From Cryobacterium roopkundense (lineage in GTDB: Bacteria; Actinomycetota; Actinomycetes; Actinomycetales; Microbacteriaceae), in contig NZ_JACHBQ010000001.1 in the NCBI RefSeq assembly GCF_014200405.1, forward strand, positions 3,534,001 through 3,598,000: 64,000 nucleotides of DNA, written 5' to 3'. A program made the translations under genes and the position numbers. The notes beneath the pieces are model-generated. The model ran no database searches. It worked only from the letters and a program-made list of their open reading frames with translations, and was not told the DNA's origin. The number at the start of each line of letters is the position of its first letter. Position 1 is the first letter of the stretch. This document shows, in pieces, positions 11,519-38,129 of this stretch.

Positions 11519-12035
11519 CAGATTCCGCCTCGATACCCATAGGTCATGAGGTTGCCTCACGAATAGAACAGTGCCATACGATCTGACGGTTCGCGGCCCC
11601 CCAACAAGGGCTATTCACGGCCGCGATCGTGCCGATTCGACCCTTTTCACCCCCACCCAGGGTGCGTCGCGCGACCTGCGCGCACGGCCGCCGAAGCGGG
11701 CGCGGAAACCTACTCACATTCCCGCGCTCAAAAGCTGTCTGACTACCCCCAATTAGGTCACAGCGAGGCATTCTGAAACCGAGGTATGGTCATCTCAAAG
11801 ATCCCAAGAACTGATCAATTGCTCCGAGCCACTGGCTAAGCGAAGAGCGCTGCTCGTCTCGACGACACACGTTCGATGGACTCTTTTTGAACCTGTAAGA
11901 CCTGAAAGCAGGGAACTATGCGCACCTTCGTGACGGATTGGAGCGGTTGCCGCTCCGGGGAAAGCGCAATGTCGATCCGTGACGCACTCAGGCTCACGCG
12001 GGTGGGGAGTGGTGTCCGCGGGGAGGTGGAGAGAC

Positions 12036-13568
12036 ATGGCTGATCCCGCCACGTCGGTAAGCACGGGGCCATGGCCCCAGGCCGCGCCGTCTGCACGATC
12101 CGTTCCTGGCCAGGCGACCTCGTCGCGTGCCGATTCGTTCACGTCCGGAGCCATCTGGGCTCGCCGCTATCGCACGAAACTTCTTGTGACCGACACGTCG
12201 GTAGTTATTCTCGCCGTGAGCATCTCGCTCCAGGCGCGTTTCGGCCCCAGCGCGCCAACTCTGGCCTGGGGCACTGTCGCGACCGATTACTCCCTGGCCG
12301 CGCTCGTAATCTCTGCCACGTGGATCGCAGTCCTCGGCGCCTTCCGCACGCGGGATACCCGAGTGGTGGGCGTCGGACCACGGGAGTACAAACTTGTCGT
12401 CAACGCGAGCGCTGTGGCTTTCGGACTGCTCGCGATCGTCTTCGTGATCCTGCAGGTCGATATCGCACGTCGGTTCTTCGTTCTCGCTCTGCCGATCGGT
12501 GTCTTCGGCCTTCTGTTCGAACGCTGGCTGTGGCGCAAATGGTTGCTGCGCCAGCGAAAGTTCGGGCATTACATGGCGCGGGTCATCGTTGTAGGCAATC
12601 GACGTGACGTCGAATATGTGGTCGGACAGGTGGAAGCGAAGACTGGTCCCACGTTCCACATCGTCGGCGCTGCCCTCAAGCAAGCACACGGAAGCGCAAT
12701 TGCGGCCCCCGGCCGCCCTATTCCGATCGTTTCGGATTTCGAGCACGTCGCCGACGCTGCCATCGCCTTCGACGTCGATACAGTCATTGTCGCCGGGCAA
12801 CCCAGCGCGAGCCCCGACTACATCCGCACCCTGGCCTGGGATCTCGAGGGCACGTCCGCTGACCTCGTTTTATCCACACGACTGACCGACGTCGCTGGCC
12901 CCCGGATCCACTTCCGCCCAGTCGAGGGACTCCCGCTCATTCACGTCGAGATTCCCAAATTCGAGGGTGCCCGCCACGTGCTCAAAAGAACGCTCGATGC
13001 GACGAGCGCCGGGCTGGCGCTCATCGTGCTGCTGCCCGTCTTCGCCCTCCTCGCTGTGCTCATCAAACTCGACAGCCCCGGGCCGATATTGTTCTGCCAG
13101 CAACGCTGCGGACGCAACGGACGCACCTTCACGATCGTGAAGTTCCGGTCGATGGTTCAAACGGCTGAGGACGACCTCGCCGGCCTCCTCGACCGAAACC
13201 AGGCCGCAGGCGTGCTCTTCAAGATGCGCAATGACCCGAGGATCACCAAGATCGGACGCGTGCTCCGCAAGTACTCCCTCGACGAACTCCCCCAGCTGTG
13301 GAATGTGTTCATCGGGGAAATGAGCCTCGTCGGACCGCGCCCGCCGCTCCCCTCGGAAGTCGAGAGCTATGACCCCCACGTTCAGCGTCGGCTCTACATC
13401 AAACCGGGTCTTACCGGGATGTGGCAGATCAACGGCCGCTCGTCATTGAGCTGGGAAGAGAGCGTACGGCTTGATCTGTACTATGTCGAGAACTGGTCTT
13501 TGGCCGGCGACCTCATGATCATCTGGCGCACGTTCAAGACACTCGCCCGACCCATCGGGGCGTACTGA
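12036..13568 (+). CDS. Polyprenyl-phosphate sugar-1-phosphate transferase (initiating transferase, WbaP/EpsL-like)
   Basis: A 510-residue integral membrane enzyme that starts repeat-unit synthesis by moving a hexose-1-phosphate from a UDP-sugar to undecaprenyl phosphate. Order: polar N-terminus, about five membrane helices (residues 40-180), a Rossmann-like CoA-binding-type domain (about 185-305), then the catalytic domain from KRTLDATSAG near residue 316. The latter contains DSPGPILFCQQRCGRNG, KFRSM, LDELPQLWNV, SLVGPRPP and KPGLTGMWQINGRSS, all hallmarks of the bacterial sugar transferase family. The ATG has GGGAGGTGGAGA upstream; an in-frame start 19 codons earlier lacks this. It opens the rightward operon and its stop overlaps the next start. 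Confidence 0.93.
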   Translation: MADPATSVSTGPWPQAAPSARSVPGQATSSRADSFTSGAIWARRYRTKLLVTDTSVVILAVSISLQARFGPSAPTLAWGTVATDYSLAALVISATWIAVLGAFRTRDTRVVGVGPREYKLVVNASAVAFGLLAIVFVILQVDIARRFFVLALPIGVFGLLFERWLWRKWLLRQRKFGHYMARVIVVGNRRDVEYVVGQVEAKTGPTFHIVGAALKQAHGSAIAAPGRPIPIVSDFEHVADAAIAFDVDTVIVAGQPSASPDYIRTLAWDLEGTSADLVLSTRLTDVAGPRIHFRPVEGLPLIHVEIPKFEGARHVLKRTLDATSAGLALIVLLPVFALLAVLIKLDSPGPILFCQQRCGRNGRTFTIVKFRSMVQTAEDDLAGLLDRNQAAGVLFKMRNDPRITKIGRVLRKYSLDELPQLWNVFIGEMSLVGPRPPLPSEVESYDPHVQRRLYIKPGLTGMWQINGRSSLSWEESVRLDLYYVENWSLAGDLMIIWRTFKTLARPIGAY

Positions 13569-14830
13569 TGAGTCTGAGGACCGAGCCCGGGTTTGCCTCC
13601 GTTCCTGCCGGAGGTCCACTTCGGATCGTCATGATGGGCACCCGAGGCGTGCCTGCCGCTTACGGCGGCTTTGAAACCGCCGTCGAAGAGATCGGGCGAC
13701 GTCTCGTGGAACGCGGACACGACGTCACCGTGTACTGCAGAATTTCGCACCACCCCGTGCAGAAGAGCCACCTCGGCATGCGCCTGGTCCACCTGCCCTC
13801 CTTGCGTATGAAGGTTGCGGAGACACTCAGCAACACCGCCCTCGCCGCCCTGCACGTGATGCTGCACCGCAAACCCGACGTCGCCTTCATTTTCAATGCC
13901 GCCAATTCTCCGTTCCTGCCCGTACTGCGCCTGCGGCGCATCCCAACCGCCCTGCACGTTGATGGCCTCGAATGGAAACGTGGCAAGTGGGGCGAGTCTG
14001 GCCGCCGGTACTACCGGTGGGCCGAGGCCGTCGCCGTTCGATGGGCGGATGCCCTGATCGCTGATGCAGATGGGATCTCCGCGTACTTTCGGCGGGAATT
14101 CGATGTCCCCACGGAGCTTCTCGCGTACGGAGCACCGATCCTGCGCAACGTCCCTTCGGCTCGTCTGGCCCCCCTCGGACTCGAACCAGGCGGTTTCCAT
14201 CTGCTGGTCGCTCGATTCGAGCCGGAAAACCACGTCGATCTCATCGTTGAGGGCTACCGCCGAAGCGGTTGCACGCTCCCCCTCGTGGTGGTCGGCTCTG
14301 CGCCGTACGCAGCGGCCTACACCGCACGGGTGGAAGGACTGGCCGCACCGGACCCGCGGATACGCATGCTGGGCGGCGTCTGGGACCAGGAACTGCTGGA
14401 CCAGCTCTATGCGCACGCCCTCAGCTATCTGCACGGCCACTCGGTGGGCGGCACAAATCCTTCTCTCCTCCGCGCCATGGGCGCAGCCACGGCGGTCATT
14501 GCCTGGGACGTCAATTTCAACCGCGACGTGGCCGGGCCTGACGGGCTCTACTTCACCAGTGCGGAGTCGCTGAGCTACCTGCTCGACGAAGCAGAGGACA
14601 ACCGTCAAGACATGATCGACATCGGCCTCGCGCTGCAGGAGCGAGCCGAATTCCGCTACACCTGGGAATCGGTCGTCGACGGCTACGAGGCACTCGCCCG
14701 ACGCCTGACGGAGGGCTACAGCACACACGGGGCCAATCACCCCCGGGCTCTCGAATCAGCATGGCCGGTGAGCGCGCCCGCTCCTGCCGGCATTCTCGCG
14801 TCGATGAAAACCCGGAGGCGAGCGACATGA
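13568..14830 (+). CDS. Glycosyltransferase, DUF1972/WchF-like rhamnosyltransferase family
   Basis: A 420-residue enzyme. After about 18 variable residues comes IVMMGTRGVPAAYGGFETA, the DUF1972 signature found in the second-step rhamnosyltransferases of streptococcal and actinobacterial capsules. ALHVDGLEWKRGKW is also characteristic. The donor half shows FHLLVARFEPENHV and GHSVGGTNPSLLRAMG. By position after the initiating transferase, and by analogy with WchF, it probably adds the second sugar, often beta-1,4-rhamnose. It overlaps the upstream stop by one base and the downstream start by four. The last 40 residues are rich in Pro and Ala and look like a tail. Confidence 0.88.
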   Translation: MSLRTEPGFASVPAGGPLRIVMMGTRGVPAAYGGFETAVEEIGRRLVERGHDVTVYCRISHHPVQKSHLGMRLVHLPSLRMKVAETLSNTALAALHVMLHRKPDVAFIFNAANSPFLPVLRLRRIPTALHVDGLEWKRGKWGESGRRYYRWAEAVAVRWADALIADADGISAYFRREFDVPTELLAYGAPILRNVPSARLAPLGLEPGGFHLLVARFEPENHVDLIVEGYRRSGCTLPLVVVGSAPYAAAYTARVEGLAAPDPRIRMLGGVWDQELLDQLYAHALSYLHGHSVGGTNPSLLRAMGAATAVIAWDVNFNRDVAGPDGLYFTSAESLSYLLDEAEDNRQDMIDIGLALQERAEFRYTWESVVDGYEALARRLTEGYSTHGANHPRALESAWPVSAPAPAGILASMKTRRRAT

Positions 14831-17800
14831 CCAGGTCGGCTGCGGCGCGCGCGCGGCTTGCGGCCCTGATCGTGGGGGCCTGTCTGATCTGCGGAGGAAC
14901 GTTCTCGGTTTCGCCTGCGCGTGCCGATACCGCTCCGGTGAACCCTGCTGATCCGGCCAGCCCGCTCACGGTCAGCGCCGACGCGCTCCCCACCACCCAG
15001 ATCGACGGCGTCGCCTGGTCCCAGGTCGTCGTCGGAAACACCGTCTACGTCGCCGGAAAGTTCACCACCGCGCGCCCCGCCGGCGCCGCCCCCGGCACCA
15101 ACACCGTCCCCCGGAACAACCTCCTCGCCTACGACATCACCACCGGCAAACTCGTCGACGGCTTCGCTCCCAACCTCAACGCCCAGGCCCTCGCCGTCAC
15201 CGCCTCCCCCGACGGCACCCGCATCTACGTCGCCGGAGACTTCACCAGCATCGACGGCGCCGGCTACTACCGGCTCGCCGCCTTCAGCACCGCCACCGGC
15301 AAAATCATCCCCGAGTTCCGTCCCATCATGGGCAGTCAAACCCGCGCCCTGGCCGCCACCAACAGCACCGTCTACGCCGGTGGAACCGCCCAAACCGTCA
15401 ACGGCCTGCCCCGCACCAACCTCGCCGCCATCAACGCCACAAACGGCTCAACGCTCAGCTGGACGGCCAACACGGACGCCCCGGTCTACGCGCTCGCCCT
15501 CACCAAGGACGGCACCCGGCTCGTGGTCGGCGGCCGCTTCGAGAACCTTGGAGGATCCCCGGCCTACGGCCTCGGCGCGGTTGACCCTGTCAGCGGATCG
15601 GTGATTCCCTGGGCGGCGGCGGCGCAGGTTCGAAACGCCGGCACGGCCGCATCGATCACGTCCCTGACGGCAACGGACGACCGAGTCTACGGCTCGGGCT
15701 ACGTCTTCGGCGCCGGGGGGAACCTGGAGGGGATCTTCTCGGCGGACCCGGGAACGGGGAAAATCGCCTGGGTCGAGGACTGCCACGGCGACACGTACTC
15801 GGTGTATCCGCTGGGGGACTCCGTGTACGGTGCGGGCCACCCGCACTACTGCGGAAACATCGGCGGATACCCCGAGACGAATCCACGCACCCAGCGCTAT
15901 ATGTTGGCGTTCAGCAAGGCGGCGACTGGCACAATCACCCGAGATCCGCACGGGTATTTCAACTGGGCCGGCACCCCCGCTCCCACACTGCTCAATTGGT
16001 TCCCGTCCTACGTTCCCGGCACGTTCTCTGGGCAGGGCCAGTCCACCTGGACCGTTGCCGGCAACGACGAGTACCTCGCAGTGGGGGGCGAGTTCCCCTT
16101 CGTCAACGGGGTCGCCCAGAGCGGACTCACACGGCACGCAATCACCGCTCTCACCCCTAACGCGATCGGTCCCAGCGTGAACCCTGAGCTCGTACCGACC
16201 GCGGTCTCCATCACCGCCGGCGCCGCACGCATCAGCTGGGCGGCCACCTTCGACAACGACAATTCAGTGCTCACATACGCACTCGTGCGCGACGGCGACC
16301 TCGCCGCACCGGTCTACACGACCACCCAATCATCCAACTTCTACACGCGCCCGTTGATGGGATTCGTCGACAAGGGGCTCGCCCCCGGCAGCGAGCACTC
16401 CTACCGGCTCTACGTCACGGATCCGTGGGGGAACTCTGTCAGCCGACTGGGCAATACGGTCACGATCGTCGCGGCGGATGCGAGCGACACCTATTCCGCC
16501 GCCGTGCTCGCGGACCAGCCCCGTTCCTACTGGCCGCTCAGTGAAGCCTCGGGCAGCGCGGGCCTCGACCACGCTGGACTATCCGACCTGCAACTCGGCA
16601 CGGGCGTGACCCGCGGCGCACCAGGCATTCAGGGCTCGGTGACAGCGTCGCGTTTCAGCGGCAACACCACCGGGTTCGCTGCCACGCAAACCGCCCAGGC
16701 CGCACCGAACACGTTCAGTGTGGAATCCTGGTTTCGAACCTCCTCGACCACGGGAGGCAAGATCGTGGGCTACGGCAACAACAACACCAAGCCCTCCACG
16801 AAATATGATCGCCACGTCTATATGGACAATTCCGGGCGTCTGTTCTTCGGGGTCAATCCCGGGTCGGCACGCACGATTTCGAGCCCCGGCGCCTACAACG
16901 ATGGAGTCTGGCATCAGGTCGTCGCCACTTTGGGTCCCGAGGGGATGCGTCTCTTCGTCGACGGCAAGCAGGTCGCCGCCCGATCGGACATCATCGCGGG
17001 TGAGGCTTTCGACGGCTACTGGCGAGTCGGCGGCGACAGTCTGGGAAGCTGGGCCTCGCATCCGCTCAGCTCCTACCTCAACGGCGATATCGCCCAGGTC
17101 TCGGTCTATCCGGCCGTACTGACCCGGCAGGCGGTCCGCGACCACTTCGTGGCGTCGGGTCGCGCCGCCACCACAACGCCCACACCGACGGATGCTTATG
17201 GGGCCGCCATCTCCGCGTCGGATCCCCTGCTGTACTGGCGACTCGGAGACGCAGCGGGCGCCCGTGCGGCCGATTCCGGATTGGCCGGCAACACCGGAAC
17301 GTATGCGGGTACCGTGACCGCAGGAGCAACCGGGTTGGTCAACGGCACTACTGACACGTCGGCCTCGTTCACCTCGGGCGCGGTCGTGAGCGGCGTGCAG
17401 GACTACGCGCCACGTGCGTACTCTCTCGAAACCTGGTTCACCACGACGACGACTGCCGGCGGCAAGCTGATCGGTTTCGGAGATACCCCGAGCGGGCTCT
17501 CCAAGACCTACGACCGGCACGTCTACATGCAGAACGACGGAACGCTGGTTTTCGGTACGTGGACTGGGATCGCCAACACCGCCAAGACAACGCAGGCCTA
17601 CAATGACGGGCAGCGCCATCACGTGGTAGCCACGCAATCCGCAGACGGCATGAAACTGTACGTCGATGGCGTGCTCGCCGGGACCAATCCGCAAGTCTCG
17701 GCGCAGAGCTATGCCGGGTACTGGCGCATCGGCGGCGACCCCACGTGGGGTTCGAGCAGCCCCTACTTCACCGGTGTCCTCGACGAGGCAGCCGTCTATC

Positions 17801-19881
17801 CGCGGGCGCTGAGCGCGGCGGTCGTGAAGAGCCACCACGACCTCGGCACCTATGTAGTGCCGCCGAATGTGGCGCCGACGGCGGCGTTCACCGCGACCTC
17901 CACACTGCTCACCACCGCATTCGACGCCTCCACCTCCACCGACACCGACGGAACCATCACCGGCTACGCCTGGAACTTCGGCGACACCACCACCGACACC
18001 GGGCCCACACCCACCCACACCTACGCCGCAGCCGGCACCTACACAACAACCCTCACCGTCACCGACAACAGCGGAGCCACCGCCACGACCACCCGCACCA
18101 TCACCGCCACCGCACCACCCAGCAACACCATCGCCCAAGACTCCTTCAACCGCACCACCACCAACGGATGGGGCACAGCCGACGTCGGCGGCCCCTGGGC
18201 CCACACCGGAGCAACCAACATCTACACCACCAACTCCGCAACCGCCCGCGTGCTCAACGCCACCGGATCCACCAAAATCAGCACCCTCACCAACGTCGCC
18301 TCCACCAACACCGACACCCAAGTCACCCTCTCCGCCGACAAAACCCCCACCGGCGGAGGCACCTACGTCTCCGTCCTCGGACGCGTCGCCGGCGGCACCG
18401 ACTACTCCCTGCGAGCCTGGCTCCGCAACGGCGCCACCATCCAAGCCCACCTCCTCCAAGGAAACACCTCACTCCAAGCCCTCAACACAGACCTCACCTA
18501 CACCCCCGGAACCCAACTCCAACTGCGCCTCCAAACCTTCGGAACCTCCCCCACCACCATCCGCGCCAAAATCTGGCCCACCGGTCAACCAGAACCCACC
18601 ACCTGGCAACTCACCACCACCGACACCACCCCCGCACTCCAAACCCCCGGCGCCATCGGACTCCGCACCTACATCTCCGCCTCCGCCACCAACGGCCCCA
18701 CCACCCTCACCTTCGACAACCTCACCAGCGTGCCTTCGCCGTCGAATGTGGCGCCGACGGCGGCGTTCACCGCGACCTCCACACTGCTCACCACCGCATT
18801 CGACGCCTCCACCTCCACCGACACCGACGGAACCATCACCGGCTACGCCTGGAACTTTGGCGACACCACCACCGACACCGGGCCCACACCCACCCACACC
18901 TACGCCGCAGCCGGCACCTACACAACAACCCTCACCGTCACCGACAACAGCGGAGCCACCGCCACCACCACCCGCACCATCACCGTCACCGCACCCCCGT
19001 CGAATGTGGCGCCGACGGCGGCGTTCACCGCGACCTCCACACTGCTCACCACCGCATTCGACGCCTCCACCTCCACCGACACCGACGGAACCATCACCGG
19101 CTACGCCTGGAACTTTGGCGACACCACCACCGACACCGGGCCCACACCCACCCACACCTACGCCGCAGCCGGCACCTACACAACAACCCTCACCGTCACC
19201 GACAACAGCGGAGCCACCGCCACCACCACCCGCACCATCACCGCCACCGCACCACCCAGCAACACCATCGCCCAAGACTCCTTCAACCGCACCACCACCA
19301 ACGGATGGGGCACAGCCGACGTCGGCGGCCCCTGGGCCCACACCGGAGCAACCAACATCTACACCACCAACTCCGCAACCGCCCGCGTGCTCAACGCCAC
19401 CGGATCCACCAAAATCAGCACCCTCACCAACGTCGCCTCCACCAACACCGACACCCAAGTCACCCTCTCCGCCGACAAAACCCCCACCGGCGGAGGCACC
19501 TACGTCTCCGTCCTCGGACGCGTCGCCGGCGGCACCGACTACTCCCTGCGAGCCTGGCTCCGCAACGGCGCCACCATCCAAGCCCACCTCCTGCAAGGAA
19601 ACACCTCACTCCAAGCCCTCAACACAGACCTCACCTACACCCCCGGAACCCAACTCCAACTGCGCCTCCAAACCTTCGGAACCTCCCCCACCACCATCCG
19701 CGCCAAAATCTGGCCCACCGGTCAACCAGAACCCACCACCTGGCAACTCACCACCACCGACACCACCCCCGCACTCCAAACCCCCGGCGCCATCGGACTC
19801 CGCACCTACATCTCCGCCTCCGCCACCAACGGCCCCACCACCCTCACCTTCGACAACCTCACCACGATTGCCGTGCCCTGA
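14827..19881 (+). CDS. Giant secreted multidomain surface protein (propeller, LamG x2, PKD x3, NGWG module x2)
   Basis: A 1,684-residue secreted protein. The ATG overlaps the preceding stop (ATGA) and gives a signal peptide ending near SPARA-DT. Visible order: a beta-propeller-like region of YVAGKF/YVAGDF/VVGGRF repeats (about 35-450), a fibronectin-III-like segment (455-550), two LamG/concanavalin-like domains each starting near a Y-W-x-L motif (about 553-780 and 787-1010), PKD1 (1013-1097), NGWG module 1 (1097-1300), PKD2 and PKD3 (1306-1477) and NGWG module 2 (1477-1681). There is no sortase signal, C-terminal membrane helix or obvious catalytic site. The module contains NGWGTAD, TGSTKIS, SADKTPTGGG, FGTSPTT and GLRTYISASATN and recurs in the protein at 34,766-37,378. 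Being co-translated inside a Wzy operon suggests a surface role tied to the polymer, such as binding or anchoring. Function is unproven. Confidence 0.88.
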   Translation: MTRSAAARARLAALIVGACLICGGTFSVSPARADTAPVNPADPASPLTVSADALPTTQIDGVAWSQVVVGNTVYVAGKFTTARPAGAAPGTNTVPRNNLLAYDITTGKLVDGFAPNLNAQALAVTASPDGTRIYVAGDFTSIDGAGYYRLAAFSTATGKIIPEFRPIMGSQTRALAATNSTVYAGGTAQTVNGLPRTNLAAINATNGSTLSWTANTDAPVYALALTKDGTRLVVGGRFENLGGSPAYGLGAVDPVSGSVIPWAAAAQVRNAGTAASITSLTATDDRVYGSGYVFGAGGNLEGIFSADPGTGKIAWVEDCHGDTYSVYPLGDSVYGAGHPHYCGNIGGYPETNPRTQRYMLAFSKAATGTITRDPHGYFNWAGTPAPTLLNWFPSYVPGTFSGQGQSTWTVAGNDEYLAVGGEFPFVNGVAQSGLTRHAITALTPNAIGPSVNPELVPTAVSITAGAARISWAATFDNDNSVLTYALVRDGDLAAPVYTTTQSSNFYTRPLMGFVDKGLAPGSEHSYRLYVTDPWGNSVSRLGNTVTIVAADASDTYSAAVLADQPRSYWPLSEASGSAGLDHAGLSDLQLGTGVTRGAPGIQGSVTASRFSGNTTGFAATQTAQAAPNTFSVESWFRTSSTTGGKIVGYGNNNTKPSTKYDRHVYMDNSGRLFFGVNPGSARTISSPGAYNDGVWHQVVATLGPEGMRLFVDGKQVAARSDIIAGEAFDGYWRVGGDSLGSWASHPLSSYLNGDIAQVSVYPAVLTRQAVRDHFVASGRAATTTPTPTDAYGAAISASDPLLYWRLGDAAGARAADSGLAGNTGTYAGTVTAGATGLVNGTTDTSASFTSGAVVSGVQDYAPRAYSLETWFTTTTTAGGKLIGFGDTPSGLSKTYDRHVYMQNDGTLVFGTWTGIANTAKTTQAYNDGQRHHVVATQSADGMKLYVDGVLAGTNPQVSAQSYAGYWRIGGDPTWGSSSPYFTGVLDEAAVYPRALSAAVVKSHHDLGTYVVPPNVAPTAAFTATSTLLTTAFDASTSTDTDGTITGYAWNFGDTTTDTGPTPTHTYAAAGTYTTTLTVTDNSGATATTTRTITATAPPSNTIAQDSFNRTTTNGWGTADVGGPWAHTGATNIYTTNSATARVLNATGSTKISTLTNVASTNTDTQVTLSADKTPTGGGTYVSVLGRVAGGTDYSLRAWLRNGATIQAHLLQGNTSLQALNTDLTYTPGTQLQLRLQTFGTSPTTIRAKIWPTGQPEPTTWQLTTTDTTPALQTPGAIGLRTYISASATNGPTTLTFDNLTSVPSPSNVAPTAAFTATSTLLTTAFDASTSTDTDGTITGYAWNFGDTTTDTGPTPTHTYAAAGTYTTTLTVTDNSGATATTTRTITVTAPPSNVAPTAAFTATSTLLTTAFDASTSTDTDGTITGYAWNFGDTTTDTGPTPTHTYAAAGTYTTTLTVTDNSGATATTTRTITATAPPSNTIAQDSFNRTTTNGWGTADVGGPWAHTGATNIYTTNSATARVLNATGSTKISTLTNVASTNTDTQVTLSADKTPTGGGTYVSVLGRVAGGTDYSLRAWLRNGATIQAHLLQGNTSLQALNTDLTYTPGTQLQLRLQTFGTSPTTIRAKIWPTGQPEPTTWQLTTTDTTPALQTPGAIGLRTYISASATNGPTTLTFDNLTTIAVP
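17864..18727 (+). repeat. 864-bp internal direct repeat, copy 1 (PKD plus NGWG module)
   Basis: This block encodes one PKD domain and one NGWG module. By direct comparison it matches 19,001-19,864 at a constant offset of 1,137 bp, with only three differences seen, at 17,979, 18,087 and 18,456. All three are third-position synonymous changes (Phe, Thr, Leu). This indicates a recent duplication or ongoing gene conversion. Confidence 0.95.
18743..19258 (+). repeat. Tandem 258-bp PKD-domain units
   Basis: Two adjacent 258-bp units (18,743-19,000 and 19,001-19,258) each encode an 86-residue PKD domain with the WNFGDTTT and HTYAAAGTYTTTLTV motifs. They are nearly identical and also match 17,864-18,121. 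They diverge only at the final codons where the second unit runs into the NGWG module. Confidence 0.92.
19001..19864 (+). repeat. 864-bp internal direct repeat, copy 2 (PKD plus NGWG module)
   Basis: Second copy of the block at 17,864-18,727, ending six codons before the stop of the giant secreted protein. Identity stops within the codons after FDNLT, where copy 1 continues into a Ser-Pro linker and copy 2 into the C-terminus. Confidence 0.95.
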
Positions 19882-21068
19882 TGACCGGCAAGCCGCGGAG
19901 ACCGGCTGTACATACTGGGCCTGCCGGGGCTCCGACCGAACGGAGAGAAACCGCGCTGTCCGTGGTTTTCGACGCGTACTGGTGGGACAGTGGCCCTCCC
20001 TCACTGCGTCATGTCCTGCGAGAAATCATCCTCGCGTGGCGGGAGGAGTTTCCGCATGACGACCTCACACTCGTCATGCGCACGAAGGCCGCGCGACCCG
20101 AACGTGACCTCCTGCCCGGGCCGGTGCGGGTGGCACGCACCGCTCTGTGGCCACAGGCCTTCGCCGCGACGTGGGCCGTTCGTCGGGTTGCTCGACGGGC
20201 CGGCGCCGATCTGGTTCTGACGCACAATTTCGCGGCCAGAGCACCGGGGGCCGTGAGCGCCGTCTACCTGCACGATGTTCTCTTTCGAACCAATCCGGAA
20301 TGGTTCACCTTGACCGAACGCGCGTACTTCTCTCTCATGACACGCTGGGTCAGCCGCGCGGATGTCGTCTTCACGTCGAGCCGTTCGGAGGCGGCTCGCA
20401 TCACGAAGTTCAGCCGCGCGCGGCGGGTGTGCCCGGTCGGCCTTGGCCTGAGCACGGAGCTGGTGGCGCGAAACATGCTCGAAGACGCCGATCCTCGGCT
20501 GCAGGGCTCCCGGTATTTCCTCACCGTCGGTCGGCTCAACGTGAGAAAGAATCTGCAACACACAGTGTTGGCCGCTCTGCAGTCCGGTGAACTCAGCCCG
20601 CAGACGCCGCTTGTCATCGTGGGCGAGGCAGACGGCAAACTCGGTCTTGTCGACCGTCAGTGCCGTGACGCCGTCACCTCGGGAGCAGTCATCTTCACCG
20701 GATTCGTCTCGGAAGCGCGGCTGCGCTGGCTGTACCGCAATGCGTCGCTCTTCCTTTTTCTCTCTCTCGGAGAAGGGTTCGGAATGCCGCCCCTCGAGGC
20801 CGCGTATTTCGGCGCCCCCCTCCTCGTGAGCGACCTGCCCGTCTTCAGAGAGACCCTGGGCACCCGCGCGCGATACGTCGATCCGACACACATCACGACA
20901 ATTGCGCGGGCAATAGCCGCCAGCACGGTTCCGCGGCAACGCGGTGATGCCTTCGACCCGGGCGAGCTGGCGCAGGAGCATAATTGGCAGACGATAGTAC
21001 GTGCCATGAGGACAATTGCCTCCGAAAGCCGAACCAGTCCGACGAAACGGAGGAAATCGACCTCATGA
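19881..21068 (+). CDS. Glycosyltransferase family 4
   Basis: A 395-residue glycosyltransferase of the GT-B type. The ATG overlaps the stop of the giant secreted protein by one base. The acceptor half includes LVLTHNFAARAPG and YLHDVLFRTNPEWF. The donor half has SRYFLTVGRLNVRKNLQH, VIVGEAD and LSLGEGFGMPPLEAAYFGAP, with the E-x7-E motif intact. This resembles mannosyl- and fucosyl-type GT4 enzymes of capsule loci, but the donor is not predictable. Its position between the secreted protein and the polymerase fits repeat-unit assembly. Confidence 0.88.
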   Translation: MTGKPRRPAVHTGPAGAPTERRETALSVVFDAYWWDSGPPSLRHVLREIILAWREEFPHDDLTLVMRTKAARPERDLLPGPVRVARTALWPQAFAATWAVRRVARRAGADLVLTHNFAARAPGAVSAVYLHDVLFRTNPEWFTLTERAYFSLMTRWVSRADVVFTSSRSEAARITKFSRARRVCPVGLGLSTELVARNMLEDADPRLQGSRYFLTVGRLNVRKNLQHTVLAALQSGELSPQTPLVIVGEADGKLGLVDRQCRDAVTSGAVIFTGFVSEARLRWLYRNASLFLFLSLGEGFGMPPLEAAYFGAPLLVSDLPVFRETLGTRARYVDPTHITTIARAIAASTVPRQRGDAFDPGELAQEHNWQTIVRAMRTIASESRTSPTKRRKSTS

Positions 21069-22456
21069 GCGCAGCTCTTGATCTCGGCATTCCCGGCCCA
21101 CTGGTGGACCGTTCGTTGCTGGCCGCGGTGTCGTTCACCTTCGCGGCACTGCTCTATCTGGTGCTGCGCCGATCGCCGCGCCTCGCGATCGCCCTGTGGA
21201 TTTCAGTGCTGTGTTTCGTGCCCGTCTGGGTGGGAATCGGGTTTGGCGCCGGCTTCGCGCTCGGCGTGAACGGAAAATACTACCTGTCGGCAGCCACCAT
21301 CCTGGCGATGGTCGTCAGCCTTGCTGTTTTCTCCACGCCGTCCTGGCAATTCAGCATCGTGGACGGGCTGGTCGCCCTCCTGGTCTTTGTGGGCCTGGCC
21401 TCGCTGTTCACGGCCGGAGGGGGTATCGCTCTGGCATTCATGTTTACCCTGGTGACCTATTTTGTTGTCGGTTTCGTCCTCGGCCGACTCGCGCCGCTCG
21501 CGGTCGACATCCGTTGGATCTATGGAGCCGTCGCGGTCGCCTTCACGATCGTCGCCGCACTCGCGGTGCTGGAATTCGCCACGGGCTGGAATCCGTTCGT
21601 GGGTATCCCCGGCAACGGCGCGCTGTATTCCACGTGGGCTGGCCTGCAGGGCCGAGGCGGAATCGTGCGCGCCGAAGGAGCATTCGGACATTCGATCGCA
21701 CTCGGTTCGAGCCTCGCCATGGCCATCCCGCTGGCGCTGTCATCGCGCTTTCGCCTGTCGATTCGTGCGGCGATGGTCGCACTCATGCTCGTGGCCACTG
21801 TGGTCACGTTCAGCCGTATCGCCATCGTAGGGGCGGTTCTCGGCCTCACCCTGTCCATAGTCTTTCTGCGCGACGCCATCTCCCGGCGACTGCGGGTTAT
21901 CCTGGTCTCCTCGCTCGTGGGCGTTTCCGTGGTGGCCGTGCCGTTTTTGAGTACAGTCTTCGAAGACGCGGGCACCGAGGCATCCGGAAGCGCTGCCTAC
22001 CGCGGCGATCTGTTGTCTCTCCTCACCGAGATGAACATCATCGGGCTCTCAGACTCGGCGCGGCGAAGCCCAGCCGGGCAAACGTACTTCGGAAATTTTC
22101 GTTCCATCGACAGCCAACTCATCCTGACCGGATTGACCAGCGGAATCCTCACTCTTGCTTGCGTCGTCGTACTGTTGCTTGCCGCGATCGCCCTGGTGCT
22201 CCGTCGTCGAGCGACGGCGGCGACGATCGCAATCGTCGCCCAGATCCCGGCCCTGGCCACGGTGGCGCTGATTACCCAATACTCGATCTTCCTCTGGTTT
22301 GTCGTCGGTTTGGCGGCGGCCGGTCAGGTGAGGTCGTCTCTTTTCGAGCCGCAGGACGGTGACCGCCACGGCTGGAGCCGCGACCCCAACCTGACAGCGC
22401 AGGGCCCGCCTGCGGGCAGTGGCACACATCAGTTCAAACGAGGGATTTTACGATGA
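21065..22456 (+). CDS. O-antigen polymerase/ligase-like membrane protein (Wzy candidate)
   Basis: A 463-residue integral membrane protein with about 11-12 hydrophobic helices, starting at an ATG that overlaps the preceding stop. The large loop between helices near the centre (about residues 180-225, including WNPFVGIPGNG, GRGGIVRAEGAFGHS and the helix start AIPLALSSRF) matches the O-antigen ligase/polymerase family (Wzy_C), where a periplasmic Arg and His handle the lipid-linked glycan. R-x-EGAFGHS is the clearest signature. A second loop holds GDLLSLLTEMNIIGLSDSA. Located directly before the Wzc-like gene, it is the best candidate for the polymerase of this locus. Polymerase versus ligase cannot be separated by sequence alone. 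Confidence 0.83.
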   Translation: MSAALDLGIPGPLVDRSLLAAVSFTFAALLYLVLRRSPRLAIALWISVLCFVPVWVGIGFGAGFALGVNGKYYLSAATILAMVVSLAVFSTPSWQFSIVDGLVALLVFVGLASLFTAGGGIALAFMFTLVTYFVVGFVLGRLAPLAVDIRWIYGAVAVAFTIVAALAVLEFATGWNPFVGIPGNGALYSTWAGLQGRGGIVRAEGAFGHSIALGSSLAMAIPLALSSRFRLSIRAAMVALMLVATVVTFSRIAIVGAVLGLTLSIVFLRDAISRRLRVILVSSLVGVSVVAVPFLSTVFEDAGTEASGSAAYRGDLLSLLTEMNIIGLSDSARRSPAGQTYFGNFRSIDSQLILTGLTSGILTLACVVVLLLAAIALVLRRRATAATIAIVAQIPALATVALITQYSIFLWFVVGLAAAGQVRSSLFEPQDGDRHGWSRDPNLTAQGPPAGSGTHQFKRGILR

Positions 22457-23898
22457 ATTTGCAGCAGCATCTCGCCACAATTCGGCTTTACTGGTACATT
22501 GTCGTACCGATCACGCTCCTCGGAGGCGTCCTGGGGTGGGGGCTCTCCCAGGCCGCGACGCCGAGCTACACGTCGACGGCCAGCCTGTATTTTTCGCTGA
22601 ACCTCAGCGGTTCAGCGACTGATTTGAACCAGGGCTCTGCGTATACGCAAAACCAGATTTTGTCGTTCGCCCAACTGACCAAGTCATCTCTGGTGCTCGC
22701 TCCAGTTATCGACCAGCTCGGTCTTGAGGGCACGGCGAAGGCTCTCGCGAACTCCGTCAATGTCAGCACCCCGCAGAACACCGTGGTGCTCGACGTGGCC
22801 GTGGACAATGACGACCCGGAGCGAGCTGCGCTCATCTCCAACGCCGTCGCGGCGAGTCTGAGCAAGAACGTCGAGCAGATCGCGCCCAAGACCGTCGATG
22901 GCACACCGTCCGTGTCCGTGCGGGTGATTGAACCGGCAACGGTTCCCACCGAGCCCTCGTCCCCGAATGTGCGCATCAACGTGCTCGCCGGCTTTCTGCT
23001 CGGCCTGTTTCTCAGCATCCTGATCATCGTTCTACGACAGGTGCTCGACACCCGTGTGCATTCAGTCGCCATCCTCACAGCGCTGACGGACTTGCCACTG
23101 CTGGGGTCCATCGAACAGTCCAAGAAGAAGATGGACCCGCTCGTGATGCTTCGTGACCCCCGGTCGCGCACGGCCGAGCTGTACCGGCAGATGCGCGCAA
23201 ACCTTGCTTTCGTCGCGGTCGACTCCACGTCGCTGAGCATCGTGGTGACGTCTTCGATTGCCGGCGAAGGCAAGTCAACGATTACGAGCAACCTCGCCCA
23301 GGCCCTCAGCGAGGGTGGCCAGCGTGTTCTGCTGATCGATGCGGACCTGCGACGGCCCGCCATCGCGAACTACGCCGGTCTGGAGGGACAGGTCGGGCTC
23401 ACGACGGTCCTGGTGGGCCGCGCCGACTATCGCGACGTGATTCAACCGTGGGGAACCAGCGGCCTGCGGGTCCTGCCTTCCGGACGCATACCCCCGAATC
23501 CGAGCGAGCTCCTCTCCTCCCGGGCGATGTCAGACCTCGTCGCCCTGCTGAAAGACGAATACGACGTCATCCTGATCGATGCCCCGCCGATGTCGGGTGC
23601 CGCGGATGCCGCCATTCTCTCTCGTCTCGTCGATGGCGCACTGGTCGTCGCGGATCGTACCCAGGTCCACCGGCCACAGCTGCTGCAGACCCTGGATTCC
23701 CTGTCGAAGTCCGGCGTTCACATCCTCGGTATCGTCCTCAACCGGCTGGCACCGAATAACGACCGCCAGGCCTACTATCAGTTGCCCGAAGGCAAGGCCA
23801 CGACATCCGGATCCGGCGGGGACAGACGGGGATCCGCCGTGCGGCGCACACCGACGGCCCTCCCCGACGGCACGGCCACCAAACCGACGAGCGCCTAG
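22453..23898 (+). CDS. Chain-length regulator fused to BY-kinase (Wzc/CapAB-like)
   Basis: A 481-residue membrane protein controlling polymer length and export. The Wzz-like part has helices at about 13-33 and 174-195 flanking an extracytoplasmic region, with the P-x2-P motif region before helix 2 (VIEPATVPTEPSSPN). The cytoplasmic kinase has Walker A SSIAGEGKST (268-276), Walker A' VLLIDADLRRP and Walker B VILIDAPP, the BY-kinase set. Only one adjacent Tyr pair is seen in the tail (Y441, Y442), rather than a long Tyr cluster. The gene is coupled to the polymerase by ATGA and closes the rightward operon. No Wzb-type tyrosine phosphatase is seen in the window. Confidence 0.9.
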   Translation: MNLQQHLATIRLYWYIVVPITLLGGVLGWGLSQAATPSYTSTASLYFSLNLSGSATDLNQGSAYTQNQILSFAQLTKSSLVLAPVIDQLGLEGTAKALANSVNVSTPQNTVVLDVAVDNDDPERAALISNAVAASLSKNVEQIAPKTVDGTPSVSVRVIEPATVPTEPSSPNVRINVLAGFLLGLFLSILIIVLRQVLDTRVHSVAILTALTDLPLLGSIEQSKKKMDPLVMLRDPRSRTAELYRQMRANLAFVAVDSTSLSIVVTSSIAGEGKSTITSNLAQALSEGGQRVLLIDADLRRPAIANYAGLEGQVGLTTVLVGRADYRDVIQPWGTSGLRVLPSGRIPPNPSELLSSRAMSDLVALLKDEYDVILIDAPPMSGAADAAILSRLVDGALVVADRTQVHRPQLLQTLDSLSKSGVHILGIVLNRLAPNNDRQAYYQLPEGKATTSGSGGDRRGSAVRRTPTALPDGTATKPTSA

Positions 23899-23905
23899 CC
23901 GTGGG

Positions 23906-24568
23906 TCAGCCGAAGACGACGATCGGCGAGCCCGCTGCCTTGCTCACCGTGACGGTGAGTGCTCCCTGCTCGTCAGTCGGCACGCTGAAGGAGTAGTGCG
24001 CCCTCGCGCTCGCGCCGGCGGCGAGGGTCCCGCTGAATTCTTCCGCATTCTTGTTCGCCAGAATCGGAGAGGCTGGCACCACATCGGGGCCGAAATAGGC
24101 GTTCACGGTCACCTCGGCGAGCGCCAGCGGCTGCGCGGTGCCGTTGACGAGCTCCACCTCGATTCGCACGGATGGCCCGCTGACCTCGCCTACCCCGGAA
24201 CCCACGACGGTGTCCGGCGTGATGTCGGTGATGCGGGCAGTGACGAGGCCGCCGAGATCTGCCATGGCGTCGATGGGCACGGTGCTGAGGACGATCTCGC
24301 CGAATACAGGCTCGACGGACGCGGAGGGGAGAGGAGCAGCTTCGATCGCTGGCGCCCGCGAGCTGCTCGGCTCCGAGGTGGGACGTGACGTCCCGAGCAC
24401 GGGCGCATCCGTCGAGGATCTGGACGTGGTCTCGGTTTGCCGGGGTGATGACCCACTCTCCACGCCCTGCGATCCCGCCCAGGCGAAGCCGCCGCCGAGC
24501 ACGAGCACCACACCGGCCGTCACCCCGATGGCCAGGCGTCGTGCCCGACGTTTCGGTGATGTGGTCAC
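23906..24568 (-). CDS. Membrane-anchored or secreted protein of unknown function
   Basis: A 220-residue protein with a basic N-terminus (PKRRARRLAIG), one hydrophobic helix (about 13-31), a Ser/Thr/Pro-rich linker (to about 85) and a C-terminal beta-rich domain with VRIEVELVNGTAQPLALAEVTVNAYFG, trimmed here to the motif region around VELVNGT. The organisation resembles extracytoplasmic DUF4352-like or CARDB-like beta-sandwich domains, but I do not recognise a definite family. Its start overlaps the stop of the CDP-alcohol phosphotransferase by four bases, so the two are co-translated. It is convergent with the Wzc-like gene, with only seven bases between them. Confidence 0.75.
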   Translation of the reverse strand: MTTSPKRRARRLAIGVTAGVVLVLGGGFAWAGSQGVESGSSPRQTETTSRSSTDAPVLGTSRPTSEPSSSRAPAIEAAPLPSASVEPVFGEIVLSTVPIDAMADLGGLVTARITDITPDTVVGSGVGEVSGPSVRIEVELVNGTAQPLALAEVTVNAYFGPDVVPASPILANKNAEEFSGTLAAGASARAHYSFSVPTDEQGALTVTVSKAAGSPIVVFG

Positions 24569-25392
24569 GGTCGGCCCGGCAGCGGATCAGCAGGCGCCGT
24601 CGTGGCCGTCCAGGACCGCAGCTCCCTGAACCACTTCACCAGCGCGAGCAAGAGGAACGCCGACGTGCCGGCAAAAATGAGAGTGTAGACGACGGTGAAC
24701 ACCGGGACGGACCCGAGGAAGAGGAACGACAGGCAGAGAACGCCGTAGTCCATGGGGGCGACGAGTAGCGCCCGGATCCACGACGGCTTGCCCGGACGGT
24801 CCTCGGCCAGTGGCATGGCGTTTCGGGGTCGCCTGAGCTGCTCCGTGAGAATCATCGCGAAGAACATCACTGCCGAGACGATGGTGAACGTGAGAGGCAC
24901 GAGGAGCCAGACGACCGGAACCACGTCGAATCGGTAGAAGCCGATCACGAGAGCGATGGGCATGGTCGAGACCTTGACGGCGTCGACAACGTGATCGAGC
25001 CATTCTCCCGCAGGGCTGCTGCTCTGGCGAAGCCGTGAGACCTGACCGTCGGCCGAGTCGAAGGCGTAGCCGATGACCAGGCACAGCGTGACGGCCACCC
25101 CCAGGAGCCACGACGGCGGAAACAACGCCAACAGAAGGATGCCGCTGAATGTCCAGACTGCGCTGATGCCCGTCACGGCGTTCGGGGTGAGGCCAGCCCG
25201 GTAGGCCCATGCCGCCAGGTATCGACCCAGCCGCCGGTTGACGAATCGAGAGTAGGCCGGCGCACTCCGCGCCGCCGGTTTCTGCGCCGCCGACAAGCGG
25301 CGCACGACGCCCAGGTACGACTCGTCGAGGGCGCTCGTGGCAACCCGATCCGGGTTCTCGCCGGCCGATCGACTGTGCCCCACCGCAGTCAT
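24565..25392 (-). CDS. CDP-alcohol phosphatidyltransferase family membrane enzyme
   Basis: A 275-residue polytopic enzyme that transfers a phospho-alcohol group from a CDP-alcohol to an acceptor alcohol. The catalytic signature is complete: D112, D115, G116, R120, G129, D133 and D137 in FDSADGQVSR followed by GEWLDHVVD. An Ala is replaced by Ser before the Arg, a common variant. About 65 polar residues precede the first helix and about six helices follow. Presence in a polysaccharide locus, with a TagD-like cytidylyltransferase at the far end, suggests either polyol-phosphate decoration or an unrelated phospholipid step. The real substrate is unknown. Confidence 0.85.
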   Translation of the reverse strand: MTAVGHSRSAGENPDRVATSALDESYLGVVRRLSAAQKPAARSAPAYSRFVNRRLGRYLAAWAYRAGLTPNAVTGISAVWTFSGILLLALFPPSWLLGVAVTLCLVIGYAFDSADGQVSRLRQSSSPAGEWLDHVVDAVKVSTMPIALVIGFYRFDVVPVVWLLVPLTFTIVSAVMFFAMILTEQLRRPRNAMPLAEDRPGKPSWIRALLVAPMDYGVLCLSFLFLGSVPVFTVVYTLIFAGTSAFLLLALVKWFRELRSWTATTAPADPLPGRP

Positions 25393-26988: not shown

Positions 26989-27954
26989 CTATTCGGCTCG
27001 CGCGCGCAGCTCGCGCCTGGCGATCGTGAGGCCGTCCCGCACCCCGCGGCCGCCGGCGAGAAGGGGACGAAGGGATCGCAGGAATTGACGTCGGCCTCCG
27101 TGGAGCAGCACTTCCCACGCGATGGGGAGGCTCGCCCGACGCCACCGTCGCAGGTCGTCGCTGCGCAGGTGCCGCGCCCCAAACAAGAGACGGTTTCGAA
27201 TGTTGTAGTAGTAGTAGGCTTCCGACTTCGGACTTCCGTGGCCCTGCACGACGGCCTGCTGGGTTCCGCCCTCGTCGTGCACAGCCACGGCGTCTCGGCA
27301 GACCTCGGTGACGCCGCCCGCCCGTTCGACTCGATACGAGAAGTCGACGTCTTCCCAGTAGAGAAAGTATTCCTCACTGAATCCGCCGACGCGGCTCCAG
27401 AGCTGGTCGCTCAGCAGGAGGCAGGCCCCGCTCAGCCACGGTTCGAACCGGGCTGACCGGAATTCGTTCCGACGCCGGGTGGCCCTGATCCGGCCATCAT
27501 CCAGATAGAGGTCCGCCCCGTCGAACCACACGGATCCGTCGGATCGCACGATGCGGGGAGAGACGAGTGTGAGCGGATGTGTGCGCACGCGCTCCAGAAG
27601 CACACCCACTTGGTCCGCCGCAATGGTCGCATCCGGATTCAGAAGCAGGAATGCCCCGGCGCCACTCTGCTGCGCCCGGTGCACTCCAGCGTTTACCCCG
27701 ACGCCGAAGCCGGTGTTTGAGGCGGGCAGGACCGTGAGCCATCCCTCAGTGTCGGCGAGCGCACATACCCGCTCGCGCTCTGATTCCGACGTGAAATTGT
27801 CCACCACCACGACGCGCGCCGCGGGCAGTGAACGCGTCAGGGGTACAAGATTCCTCTCGAGCAGCTCTGACGACCCGTAGTTCACGACAACGATAGCCAG
27901 GCTCTCGATGTCGGCCGATGTCCACTCGTTCTCCACCTCAGACGCACCTTTCAC
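26989..27954 (-). CDS. Glycosyltransferase family 2 (rhamnosyltransferase-like)
   Basis: A 321-residue GT-A enzyme. SLAIVVVNYGSSELLERNL is the usual GT2 start. VVVVDNFTSE, NTGFGVGVNAGVHRAQQSGA and LLNPDAT supply the nucleotide-binding region and the DxD-equivalent (NPD). FSEEYFLYWEDVDFSYRVE has the catalytic E-D-V-D motif of the WbbL/RfbF-like rhamnosyltransferase group. It is transcribed away from the divergent gene at 28,009, and its stop lies 12 bp from the insertion sequence, so its coding region is intact but its native downstream sequence has been displaced. Confidence 0.9.
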   Translation of the reverse strand: MKGASEVENEWTSADIESLAIVVVNYGSSELLERNLVPLTRSLPAARVVVVDNFTSESERERVCALADTEGWLTVLPASNTGFGVGVNAGVHRAQQSGAGAFLLLNPDATIAADQVGVLLERVRTHPLTLVSPRIVRSDGSVWFDGADLYLDDGRIRATRRRNEFRSARFEPWLSGACLLLSDQLWSRVGGFSEEYFLYWEDVDFSYRVERAGGVTEVCRDAVAVHDEGGTQQAVVQGHGSPKSEAYYYYNIRNRLLFGARHLRSDDLRRWRRASLPIAWEVLLHGGRRQFLRSLRPLLAGGRGVRDGLTIARRELRARAE

Positions 27955-28008: not shown

Positions 28009-29100
28009 ATGAGGATTCGGAACGCACGATCAGTGGCGTCGCGGTGGGGCCAGGCCCTCCCCGCGGACGACCGCGAGCCAGCGACGGCGCTGACCGTGCT
28101 GCAGTCTTTTCCGGTCCCTCGCAAGATCACAAACCCTTACATCGTGATGCTCGCCGGGTGTCTGCGCACGTTGCCCGACGTGACGGTGCTCAATTTCAGT
28201 TGGCGAACGGCCTTGCTCGGACGCTATGACGTCTTCCACTCGCACTGGCCGGAAAACCTCGTCGATGGTCACAGTCCGCTCAAGAAATTCGTGCGCCAGA
28301 TCTTTACGCTTGCGCTCGTCGCGAGGCTCACGATCACGCGCACACCGATCGTCCGCACGATGCACAATGTGGAACGTCCACAGGGTCTGTCCCGGCGGGC
28401 GAGTCTTCTCCTCGATCTCATCGATCGCGAGACGACCCTGCGAATCCGCCTCAACACCACGACCATCATCGACTCCGCCGCACCCAGCGCGACGATACCT
28501 CACGGCCATTACCGGGACTGGTTTGCCCGGTACCCGCCCTCGACCGTCGTGCCCGGCCAGATTGGCTATACCGGCCTGATCCGTCGGTACAAGGGCGTCG
28601 AGACCCTGGTCAGTGCCTTTCGCGACACCGAAGGGACCGGCGGGGGCCTGTCGCTGCGCATCGGGGGCAATCCGTCGTCGCCGGAGCTGGCACAAACCGT
28701 TTCCACGCTCGCGAGCGGCGATGACCGAATCTCCCTAACGCTGAACCTGTTGACGGATGCCGAACTCGTGGAGATCGTCACGTCCTCCGAACTGGTGGTT
28801 CTCCCCTATCGTTTCATGCACAACTCAGGGGGCGTCTTGGCTGCCCTGTCCATGGGGCGCCCCGTGCTGGTTCCGGAGAATGCGGTGAATCGCGCACTCG
28901 CGTGCGAGGTGGGGGCCGGGTGGGTGCACTGCTACGCCGGCGAGCTGACCGCCCGGCATCTCACGGACACCCTTCACGAGCTGAGGACCCACCCGGCACC
29001 GCGTCCCGTCGATCTGCAGGCACGTGAGTGGAACCACACCGGCACGAATCACGTCGACGCCTACCGGCAGGCGATCGCGATCCTTCATGACGGACACTGA
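28009..29100 (+). CDS. Glycosyltransferase (GT-B fold, GumK/beta-mannosyltransferase-like)
   Basis: A 363-residue glycosyltransferase. The ATG giving MRIRNARS was chosen because it lies eight bases after a good -10 element; the in-frame alternative ten codons upstream lies within the promoter. The N-half has YDVFHSHWPENLVDG and PIVRTMHNVERPQG, and the C-half has GQIGYTGLIRRYKGVETL, VLPYRFMHNSGGVLAALSMG and RPVLVPEN. These resemble exopolysaccharide enzymes of the GumK/AceC type. The stop overlaps the next gene by 14 bp, so both are probably in one transcript. Confidence 0.82.
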   Translation: MRIRNARSVASRWGQALPADDREPATALTVLQSFPVPRKITNPYIVMLAGCLRTLPDVTVLNFSWRTALLGRYDVFHSHWPENLVDGHSPLKKFVRQIFTLALVARLTITRTPIVRTMHNVERPQGLSRRASLLLDLIDRETTLRIRLNTTTIIDSAAPSATIPHGHYRDWFARYPPSTVVPGQIGYTGLIRRYKGVETLVSAFRDTEGTGGGLSLRIGGNPSSPELAQTVSTLASGDDRISLTLNLLTDAELVEIVTSSELVVLPYRFMHNSGGVLAALSMGRPVLVPENAVNRALACEVGAGWVHCYAGELTARHLTDTLHELRTHPAPRPVDLQAREWNHTGTNHVDAYRQAIAILHDGH

Positions 29101-30650: not shown

Positions 30651-30817
30651 GACCGCCGTCTCGGGTCGACACGGCCTCCCTTTGGGGGGTCGCCGTCATC
30701 CCCCTCGTGTGGATAACGTGAAACTGCAGGCCTGACCCAGGTAATTTGCGCGCCTCGAGTGTGGGCCGGCCCACCCAACTTCGGGTGACTACAGCCTTAC
30801 TCGATACCGGAGTCTCC

Positions 30818-37616: not shown

Positions 37617-38129
37617 ATGTCGGCGGCCCGAGAGAAAACCGAGCACGCCGTGACACCAGACCTAGCAGTTGAAGGATCCAGAGCAGCAGCCGGCCGAGTC
37701 GGCTATGCGGCCGGCGGTTTTGACCTGTTTCATGTGGGCCATCTCAATATTCTCAAGCACGCCAAGAGCCAGTGCGACTACCTCATCGCGGGCGTCGTCT
37801 CTGACGAAATGCTCACGCTCACCAAGGGCGTCAGCCCCGTGGTGCCGCTGGCCGAACGGCTGCAAATCGTTCAGCACATCTCCTACGTGGACGAAGCCGT
37901 CGCCGAGATTCTCGAAGACAAATTGCAGACCTGGGCCGAGCTGAAATTCGACGTGTTCTTCAAAGGCGACGACTGGCGCGGCACGCCGCGGGGCCTGCAC
38001 CTCGAACGCGAATTCGCCGCCGTCGGCGTCGACGTGGTCTACTTTCCCTACACCGTCAGCACCTCGAGTACGGCCCTGCGACGTGCGTTGATTGCGCTTT
38101 CTCAGTCCGAGGCTGAGGCGCGGGCCTAG
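37617..38129 (+). CDS. Cytidylyltransferase-like nucleotidyltransferase (TagD-type)
   Basis: A 170-residue enzyme of the nucleotidyltransferase superfamily. GYAAGGFDLFHVGHLNIL contains the HxGH motif (HVGH), DWRGTP and STSSTALRR match the later substrate and R-T-x-G-I-S-T-T-like regions of glycerol-3-phosphate cytidylyltransferase, and the length fits after removing about 25 leader residues. The reaction would be CTP plus an alcohol phosphate giving a CDP-alcohol. The ATG at 37,617 has no clear ribosome site; an in-frame GTG near codon 12 is an alternative. It sits alone at the end of the locus, divergent from the beta-helix gene. A link to the CDP-alcohol phosphotransferase at 24,565 is an inference. 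Confidence 0.8.
   Translation: MSAAREKTEHAVTPDLAVEGSRAAAGRVGYAAGGFDLFHVGHLNILKHAKSQCDYLIAGVVSDEMLTLTKGVSPVVPLAERLQIVQHISYVDEAVAEILEDKLQTWAELKFDVFFKGDDWRGTPRGLHLEREFAAVGVDVVYFPYTVSTSSTALRRALIALSQSEAEARA

Follow-up and report, generated by a model that had tools for sequence, protein, structure and literature searches.

Genes at the locus

The window, a stretch of 64,000 nucleotides of Cryobacterium roopkundense DNA that was analysed as a whole, encodes a polysaccharide locus with the hallmarks of Wzx/Wzy-dependent assembly, for which TIGR03025, PF13440 and TIGR01007 each score above their cut-offs. On the forward strand lie the polyprenyl glycosylphosphotransferase that acts as initiating enzyme (c9; 11979..13568; TIGR03025, PF02397) and a DUF1972 glycosyltransferase (c2; 13568..14830; PF09314 above cut-off, with Cps2T as the nearest NCBIfam model, below its cut-off), followed by a giant gene, c0 (14827..19881), that forms a single open frame of 1,684 codons. 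Downstream on the same strand are a GT4 glycosyltransferase (19881..21068; PF00534), which home-made gene calling missed, a Wzy-like polymerase with an uncertain start codon (20984..22456; cluster c22 in relatives) that matches PF04932 weakly (E 6e-4; it scores 20.1 bits, where the cut-off is 31.7), and a chain-length or tyrosine-autokinase protein (c6; 22453..23898; TIGR01007). Further glycosyltransferases were assigned by cluster and by Pfam on a relative: a GT2-like enzyme on the reverse strand (c12; 26989..27954) and, on the forward strand, a GT4-like (c13; 28033..29100) and a GT2 enzyme (c3; 29087..30073). A polysaccharide pyruvyl transferase (30746..31948, forward; PF04230) and a Wzx-type flippase (c11; 33171..34694, forward; PF13440), one of two such flippases in the locus, complete the assembly genes. 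Two other genes lie among them: an ISL3-family transposase gene (25652-26953), about 260 bases off c4, and an FrhB/FdhB-like (coenzyme F420 hydrogenase beta) gene (31945-33174) between the pyruvyl transferase and flippase genes.

The preliminary description of this DNA had singled out c0 as a 1,684-residue exported protein that overlaps glycosyltransferase genes on both sides, which is confirmed: the ATG of c0 shares the bases ATGA with the stop of the DUF1972 gene, the stop of c0 shares TGATG with the start of the GT4 gene, and the translated N-terminus is a signal-peptide-like stretch. The architecture given there, a propeller, an FN3-like domain, two LamG, three PKD and two NGWG modules, is likewise borne out by Pfam and the predicted fold. 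A seven-bladed WD40-like propeller is predicted at about residues 38-441 (14938..16149), with a weak Pfam match to the Rax2 propeller that stays below cut-off, and is followed by an FN3-like beta-sandwich (16183..16479; strands at model residues 433-513) and two LamG (concanavalin A-like) domains (16480..17850, limits approximate; PF13385 in two stretches). The tail (17851..19881) has the order PKD-NGWG-PKD-PKD-NGWG, judging from Pfam, repeat and composition comparison, the three PKD domains being recognised by Pfam; both NGWG modules and the PKD domains are near-identical DNA copies. The third codon positions of the NGWG copies are strongly skewed (about A.16, C.79, G.05 and T.01 in 17851-19878), and a third-position G below.15 occurs only in the two c0 copies of the window among 140 NGWG segments, whose mean is.40. 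Over about 17867-19881 each of the three forward frames is open. The odd composition of the tail could stem from a foreign source of the DNA, or else from selection that keeps the mRNA unstructured.

Across 97 family members c0 ranges in length from 467 to 2,196 amino acids; the propeller is the constant part, the tail varies, and NGWG is absent from 15. No C-terminal hydrophobic segment was found in any of the 97. Covalent sorting by sortase or a PEP-CTERM system was considered and rejected on this count, an LPxTG-like string occurring without such a segment in seven. A lipoprotein was rejected as well: the family consensus near the mature start, PAxADT, appears to suit signal peptidase I instead.

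The preliminary description had presented c0 itself as the candidate system. That c0 is part of a real conserved locus holds; that it is the whole system does not, since c4, c7, c1 and c8, four informative genes absent from that description, belong to it too. The first of these, c4 (24565..25392, reverse), is a CDP-alcohol phosphotransferase (PF01066 above cut-off). The motif DxxDGxxxR...GxxxDxxxD is intact in all 29 sequences compared, the window included, and none of them departs from it at the four aspartates, the two glycines or the arginine; the signature motif of CDP-alcohol phosphotransferases is DxxDGxx(A)R...GxxxDxxxD, and its usual A is S here. A cytidylyltransferase of the glycerol-3-phosphate or phospho-alcohol type, c7 (37617..38129, forward), matches TIGR01518 with E 8e-21, below its cut-off, and in the structure database TagD (1coz, E 7e-14) and the ethanolamine-phosphate type (3elb, E 5e-20); HxGH is present in 23 of 23 sequences, the window included. 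The reverse-strand gene c1 (23906..24568), whose GTG start shares four bases (GTGA) with the stop of c4, encodes one hydrophobic segment, a Ser/Thr/Pro-rich linker and a C-terminal domain, a layout judged by eye from the sequences; in a relative DUF4352 scores just above cut-off.

The last of the four, c8 (34766..37261, reverse, start codon uncertain), is predicted to be a secreted protein that joins an NGWG module to a right-handed beta-helix (PF13229, model and fold matches). The modelled helix carries conserved polar residues and resembles AlgE4 and RbmB, so that c8 may be called epimerase- or lyase-like by fold, a resemblance that does not by itself establish an activity. Foldseek also matched the model to the lectins ERGIC-53 and soybean agglutinin (1gv9, E 1.8e-5; 1sbf, E 1.6e-4), and these matches most likely fall on the NGWG module, the predicted N-terminal beta-sandwich of c8, which is modelled with a pLDDT of 57-89. 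In the genome of the window NGWG is found in c0 and c8 only, both inside this locus. In relatives it also forms part of metallophosphatase, GH88 and CotH/LTD proteins encoded off-locus, preceded by a PKD domain in four of five such proteins scanned; reuse of this kind is the expected behaviour of a localisation module. One phosphatase-like NGWG gene in G014 (L113, 1622-3664) is broken by a stop codon within the module.

Distribution and co-occurrence

A search with the propeller part finds a relative in 31 of 60 close genomes, its own included. Named species yielded 143 stretches with a gene for a relative, and the best 80 of the 143 were kept as 78 loci from Clavibacter, Leifsonia, Subtercola, Frigoribacterium, Arthrobacter, Cellulomonas and others. 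At least two of ten assembly families are present in 61 of these 78 loci, and in 48 of the 57 loci on stretches of at least 20.5 kb; homologues do not lie mostly outside polysaccharide loci, the outcome that had been named as adverse. In 48 of the 78, c1 is found upstream of c0, no more than 600 bases away. Of the 17 exceptional loci with fewer than two families, nine are on stretches of at least 20.5 kb (four short Leifsonia copies and L049, L052, L106, L109 and L110), one is on 20.0 kb (L100), and the remaining seven are on pieces between 3.8 and 15.9 kb long, with one family present on four of these pieces. The short Leifsonia proteins (L041-L044) consist of propeller and NGWG, give no LamG match and are encoded away from polysaccharide families; three of the four are second copies in genomes that also have a locus copy.

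A sample of 248 genomes from the order, that of the window among them, has c0 in 61, c4 in 60 and NGWG in 44, with c4 spread over 27 and c0 over 29 of the 85 genera sampled in this one order. The two genes occur together in 51 genomes, c4 alone in 9, c0 alone in 10 and neither in 178, counts in which genomes of the same genus are not independent, a dependence that Fisher values for such counts leave out of account; the ten c0 genomes without c4 hold mostly divergent or partial matches. In 48 of the 51 the nearest copies lie no more than 20 kb apart, and in the other three they are on different contigs, which makes c4 the most consistent partner of c0. For a single-copy gene in a 4-Mb genome such proximity would be expected by chance in about 1% of cases by our own arithmetic, and it argues against a c0 that is an operon passenger without a functional tie to the polymer; despite the nine of 57 long loci that lack two assembly families, we consider that account very improbable. 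The DUF1972 gene was rejected as the main partner of c0: among the 60 close genomes it gave 25 with both and 5 and 6 with one alone, as against 30 with both and 2 and 1 alone for c4.

NGWG follows the same partners. Among the 44 NGWG genomes 41 also have c4 and 42 also have c0, 91 of the 111 NGWG copies are no further than 40 kb from c4 or c0, and in the 60 close genomes all 27 that carry NGWG carry c4. Matches to c1 at E 1e-15 or better occur in 40 of the 248 genomes, every one of them with NGWG. Strong c1 and strong DUF1972 matches mark the identical 28 of the 60 close genomes when strong means E 2.1e-13 or better and E 4.4e-128 or better, respectively, thresholds chosen after the gap in E-values had been seen; G005 and G017 have weaker DUF1972 matches and fall outside this set. 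In the named loci c1 is present in 60 of 78 but DUF1972 in 33 stretches, which does not confirm the pairing there, where 10-kb flanks may miss DUF1972. Because of these co-occurrence patterns two sub-modules appear to exist, one of DUF1972 and c1, the other of c4, NGWG and c0. The order-wide searches scored the best 5 candidates per genome for c0, 10 for c4, 12 for NGWG and 11 for c1, numbers so few that absences may be misses, and in G054 NGWG was found by profile and missed by a single-sequence search.

The locus version of the window was probably exchanged between genera. A quick tree of c0 with 99 rows groups the c0 of the window with Clavibacter and Leifsonia in a set of 13 rows (SH-aLRT 100) and not with the other rows of its own genus; a few long branches elsewhere in the tree drew a warning from the program. 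The c4 of the window is 73% identical to that of Leifsonia against a best of 60% within the genus. A 416-kb replicon of Actinomyces oris WVU627 holds the same gene set, annotated in general terms as cytidyltransferase, sugar transferase, CDP-alcohol phosphatidyltransferase, DUF1972 and LamG protein, and our own profiles also found NGWG and c1 on it. This replicon (L131, NZ_CP116225.1), from an oral isolate, is filed as a plasmid, and its c1 is flanked by two propeller genes. Nine Leptospira plasmid records (H4-H12) give weak partial propeller matches at 25-31% identity, mostly to hypothetical proteins.

Proposed roles of c0 and its partners

Several genomes separate the parts of the locus. In three of the same genus (G004, G007 and G031) the glycosylphosphotransferase, DUF1972 and c1 are retained, at a place that shows partial synteny, and genome searches gave no match to c0, c4 or NGWG in them, a near-natural deletion of these three parts. 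Five genes from the left arm of the window (6334-11416) occur in the same order next to the glycosylphosphotransferase in G007 and G031 (identities of 71-79% for the aminotransferases, 75-76% for the oxidoreductase, 62-66% for the glycosylphosphotransferase and just 37-39% for the epimerase), and at that place G004 has the oxidoreductase (73%) and the glycosylphosphotransferase (64%). Three other genomes (G001, G021 and G026) have NGWG and c4, with only a divergent propeller beside c4 and no match to c1, DUF1972 or full-length c0; NGWG is on another contig than c4 in G001 and G026 and far from it in G021. The idea of c1 as the sole receptor of NGWG was dropped, since the module occurs without a c1 match in the latter three genomes and c1 without the module in the former three.

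The biochemistry suggested by c7 and c4 is that the pair would probably attach a phospho-alcohol, either to the polymer or to the lipid that carries it. We tentatively propose that this group, on the polysaccharide, may serve as a mark, and that NGWG may be a lectin-like anchoring module that reads it and so holds c0, c8 and the unlinked enzymes. The proposal draws on the tracking of c4 by NGWG in both genome samples, a tracking that holds even without c1, the DUF1972 glycosyltransferase and full-length c0 (G001, G021, G026), and it is consistent with the absence of NGWG where DUF1972 and c1 stand without c4 (G004, G007, G031). Against it stand G088, which encodes three full c0 proteins, six NGWG modules, c1, c7, DUF1972 and c8 and in which c4 is absent from the 79 kb around c0 and NGWG and from a genome search at E 1e-20; G259 and G167, where single NGWG matches were obtained and c4 was not found; and the 19 of 60 c4 genomes from which NGWG is absent.

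Taken together, the conserved gene set encodes a polymer along with proteins that probably grip and trim it. What the analysis shows is the gene content and how it is conserved, which genes occur together and lie together, the folds as predicted and the residues that are conserved; each binding and catalytic step is inferred. The favoured account, to which we give a little better than an even chance, is that c0 is a matrix or capsule-scaffold protein, co-made with the polysaccharide of its own locus, that holds the polymer non-covalently. Secreted without a covalent anchor, it would bind the new polymer through propeller, LamG and NGWG domains, with the PKD domains as spacers, and would cross-link the chains and retain them at the surface; c8, which carries the same NGWG module, would probably edit or trim the same polymer, and c1 would be a membrane-tethered partner of the polysaccharide machinery. 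The varying LamG/PKD tails, and the 'double-sided tape' precedent of Bap1/RbmC (PMC10102183), would also suit an adhesin that faces outward to plant, ice or abiotic surfaces and for which the polysaccharide is a mere foothold. This is unlikely: NGWG is common to the lyase-like c8 and to unlinked enzymes, which suits retention better than surface targeting.

The matrix account has to contend with a conserved site in the propeller, with the nine long loci that lack two assembly families, with c0 proteins that lack NGWG, with c0 genomes that lack c4, G088 among them, and with the c4 genomes that lack NGWG. The site (15778..15852, forward; residues 318-342) was recognised in the alignment as a near-invariant D-C-H-G-D ... 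H-x-H-x-C and, in our own reading of the predicted strands, would lie partly between blades five and six and partly in a long loop of blade six. Among 131 sequences H338 and H340 are kept in 131, C319 and C342 in 130, D322 in 127, D318 in 124 and H320 in 122, and in a set of 82 the residues D, C, G, D, H, H and C are invariant. The site looks enzymatic or metal-binding from its residues, and because it is near-invariant the earlier statement that c0 has no evident catalytic site is unsafe. It raises the question of whether c0 is an enzyme whose propeller cleaves, modifies or attaches the polymer, the LamG/PKD/NGWG tail only targeting it. The constancy of the propeller beside so variable a tail, and the position of the site, would agree with this; however, the propeller has no PDB sequence match, all 15 matches of c0 sitting in the PKD region, its listed fold matches are mostly WD40 binding propellers, and the two cysteines and the histidines may form a structural disulfide and a metal site. 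An enzymatic c0 is a serious rival, if the less likely one. The WD40-like fold alone, for its part, is no evidence of glycan binding.

Relation to known systems

The preliminary description held that operons of this type usually carry assembly enzymes alone. This was too strong, because matrix proteins and a lyase, RbmB, are grouped with polysaccharide genes in the vps-rbm cluster of Vibrio (PMC10102183, PMC11637428). The Bap1/RbmC propeller, which is eight-bladed, is described as binding VPS (PMC10102183). In the favoured account c0 takes the place of the Bap1/RbmC proteins that grip their own polysaccharide, and c8 that of the lyase RbmB. The locus differs in being Gram-positive, in the seven WD40-like blades of its propeller, in having LamG and NGWG where Bap1/RbmC have a beta-prism, and in adding a CDP-alcohol phosphotransferase and a membrane-tethered partner. 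No Bap1/RbmC chain is among the 15 PDB sequence matches of c0 or among the 50 fold matches listed; with seven blades against eight and no sequence match seen, the locus was not filed as a vps-rbm member. The best explanation, by analogy, is that c0 would work like Bap1/RbmC and be of separate origin. If so, the principle of encoding matrix proteins with their polysaccharide would carry over from Vibrio to the Actinomycetota.

Exosortase/PEP-CTERM loci also encode secreted proteins among polysaccharide assembly genes, but the 97 c0 proteins are without the C-terminal hydrophobic segment. With other Wzx/Wzy/Wzz loci the c0 locus has in common the glycosylphosphotransferase, flippase, polymerase-like and chain-length/kinase genes; unlike them, it contains two giant secreted proteins with a common, apparently lectin-like module. 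Among the matches listed in the open-licence literature no description of this gene combination was found. How a Wzy-type polysaccharide is retained at the surface of thick-walled, LPS-free bacteria is only partly understood, and the locus bears on this question as a defined set of genes: the polymer, the candidate glycan mark, the lectin-like module and the putative polymer-editing enzyme could each be removed separately. It would also give a functional lead for proteins that are currently named 'LamG domain-containing' or 'hypothetical'.

In the lic genes of pneumococcus a cytidylyltransferase and a phospho-alcohol transferase decorate the surface glycan, and one recurring choline-binding module keeps many secreted proteins on that glycan without a covalent bond. 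The c7 and c4 pair and the NGWG module that recurs on several secreted proteins may be regarded as analogous, although c4 is a membrane enzyme of the CDP-OH_P_transf type and not LicD, and NGWG looks lectin-like and not like a choline-binding repeat. If true, the mark-reading scheme would be a previously unrecognised surface system of actinobacteria, akin to the choline-binding modules that read phosphocholine.
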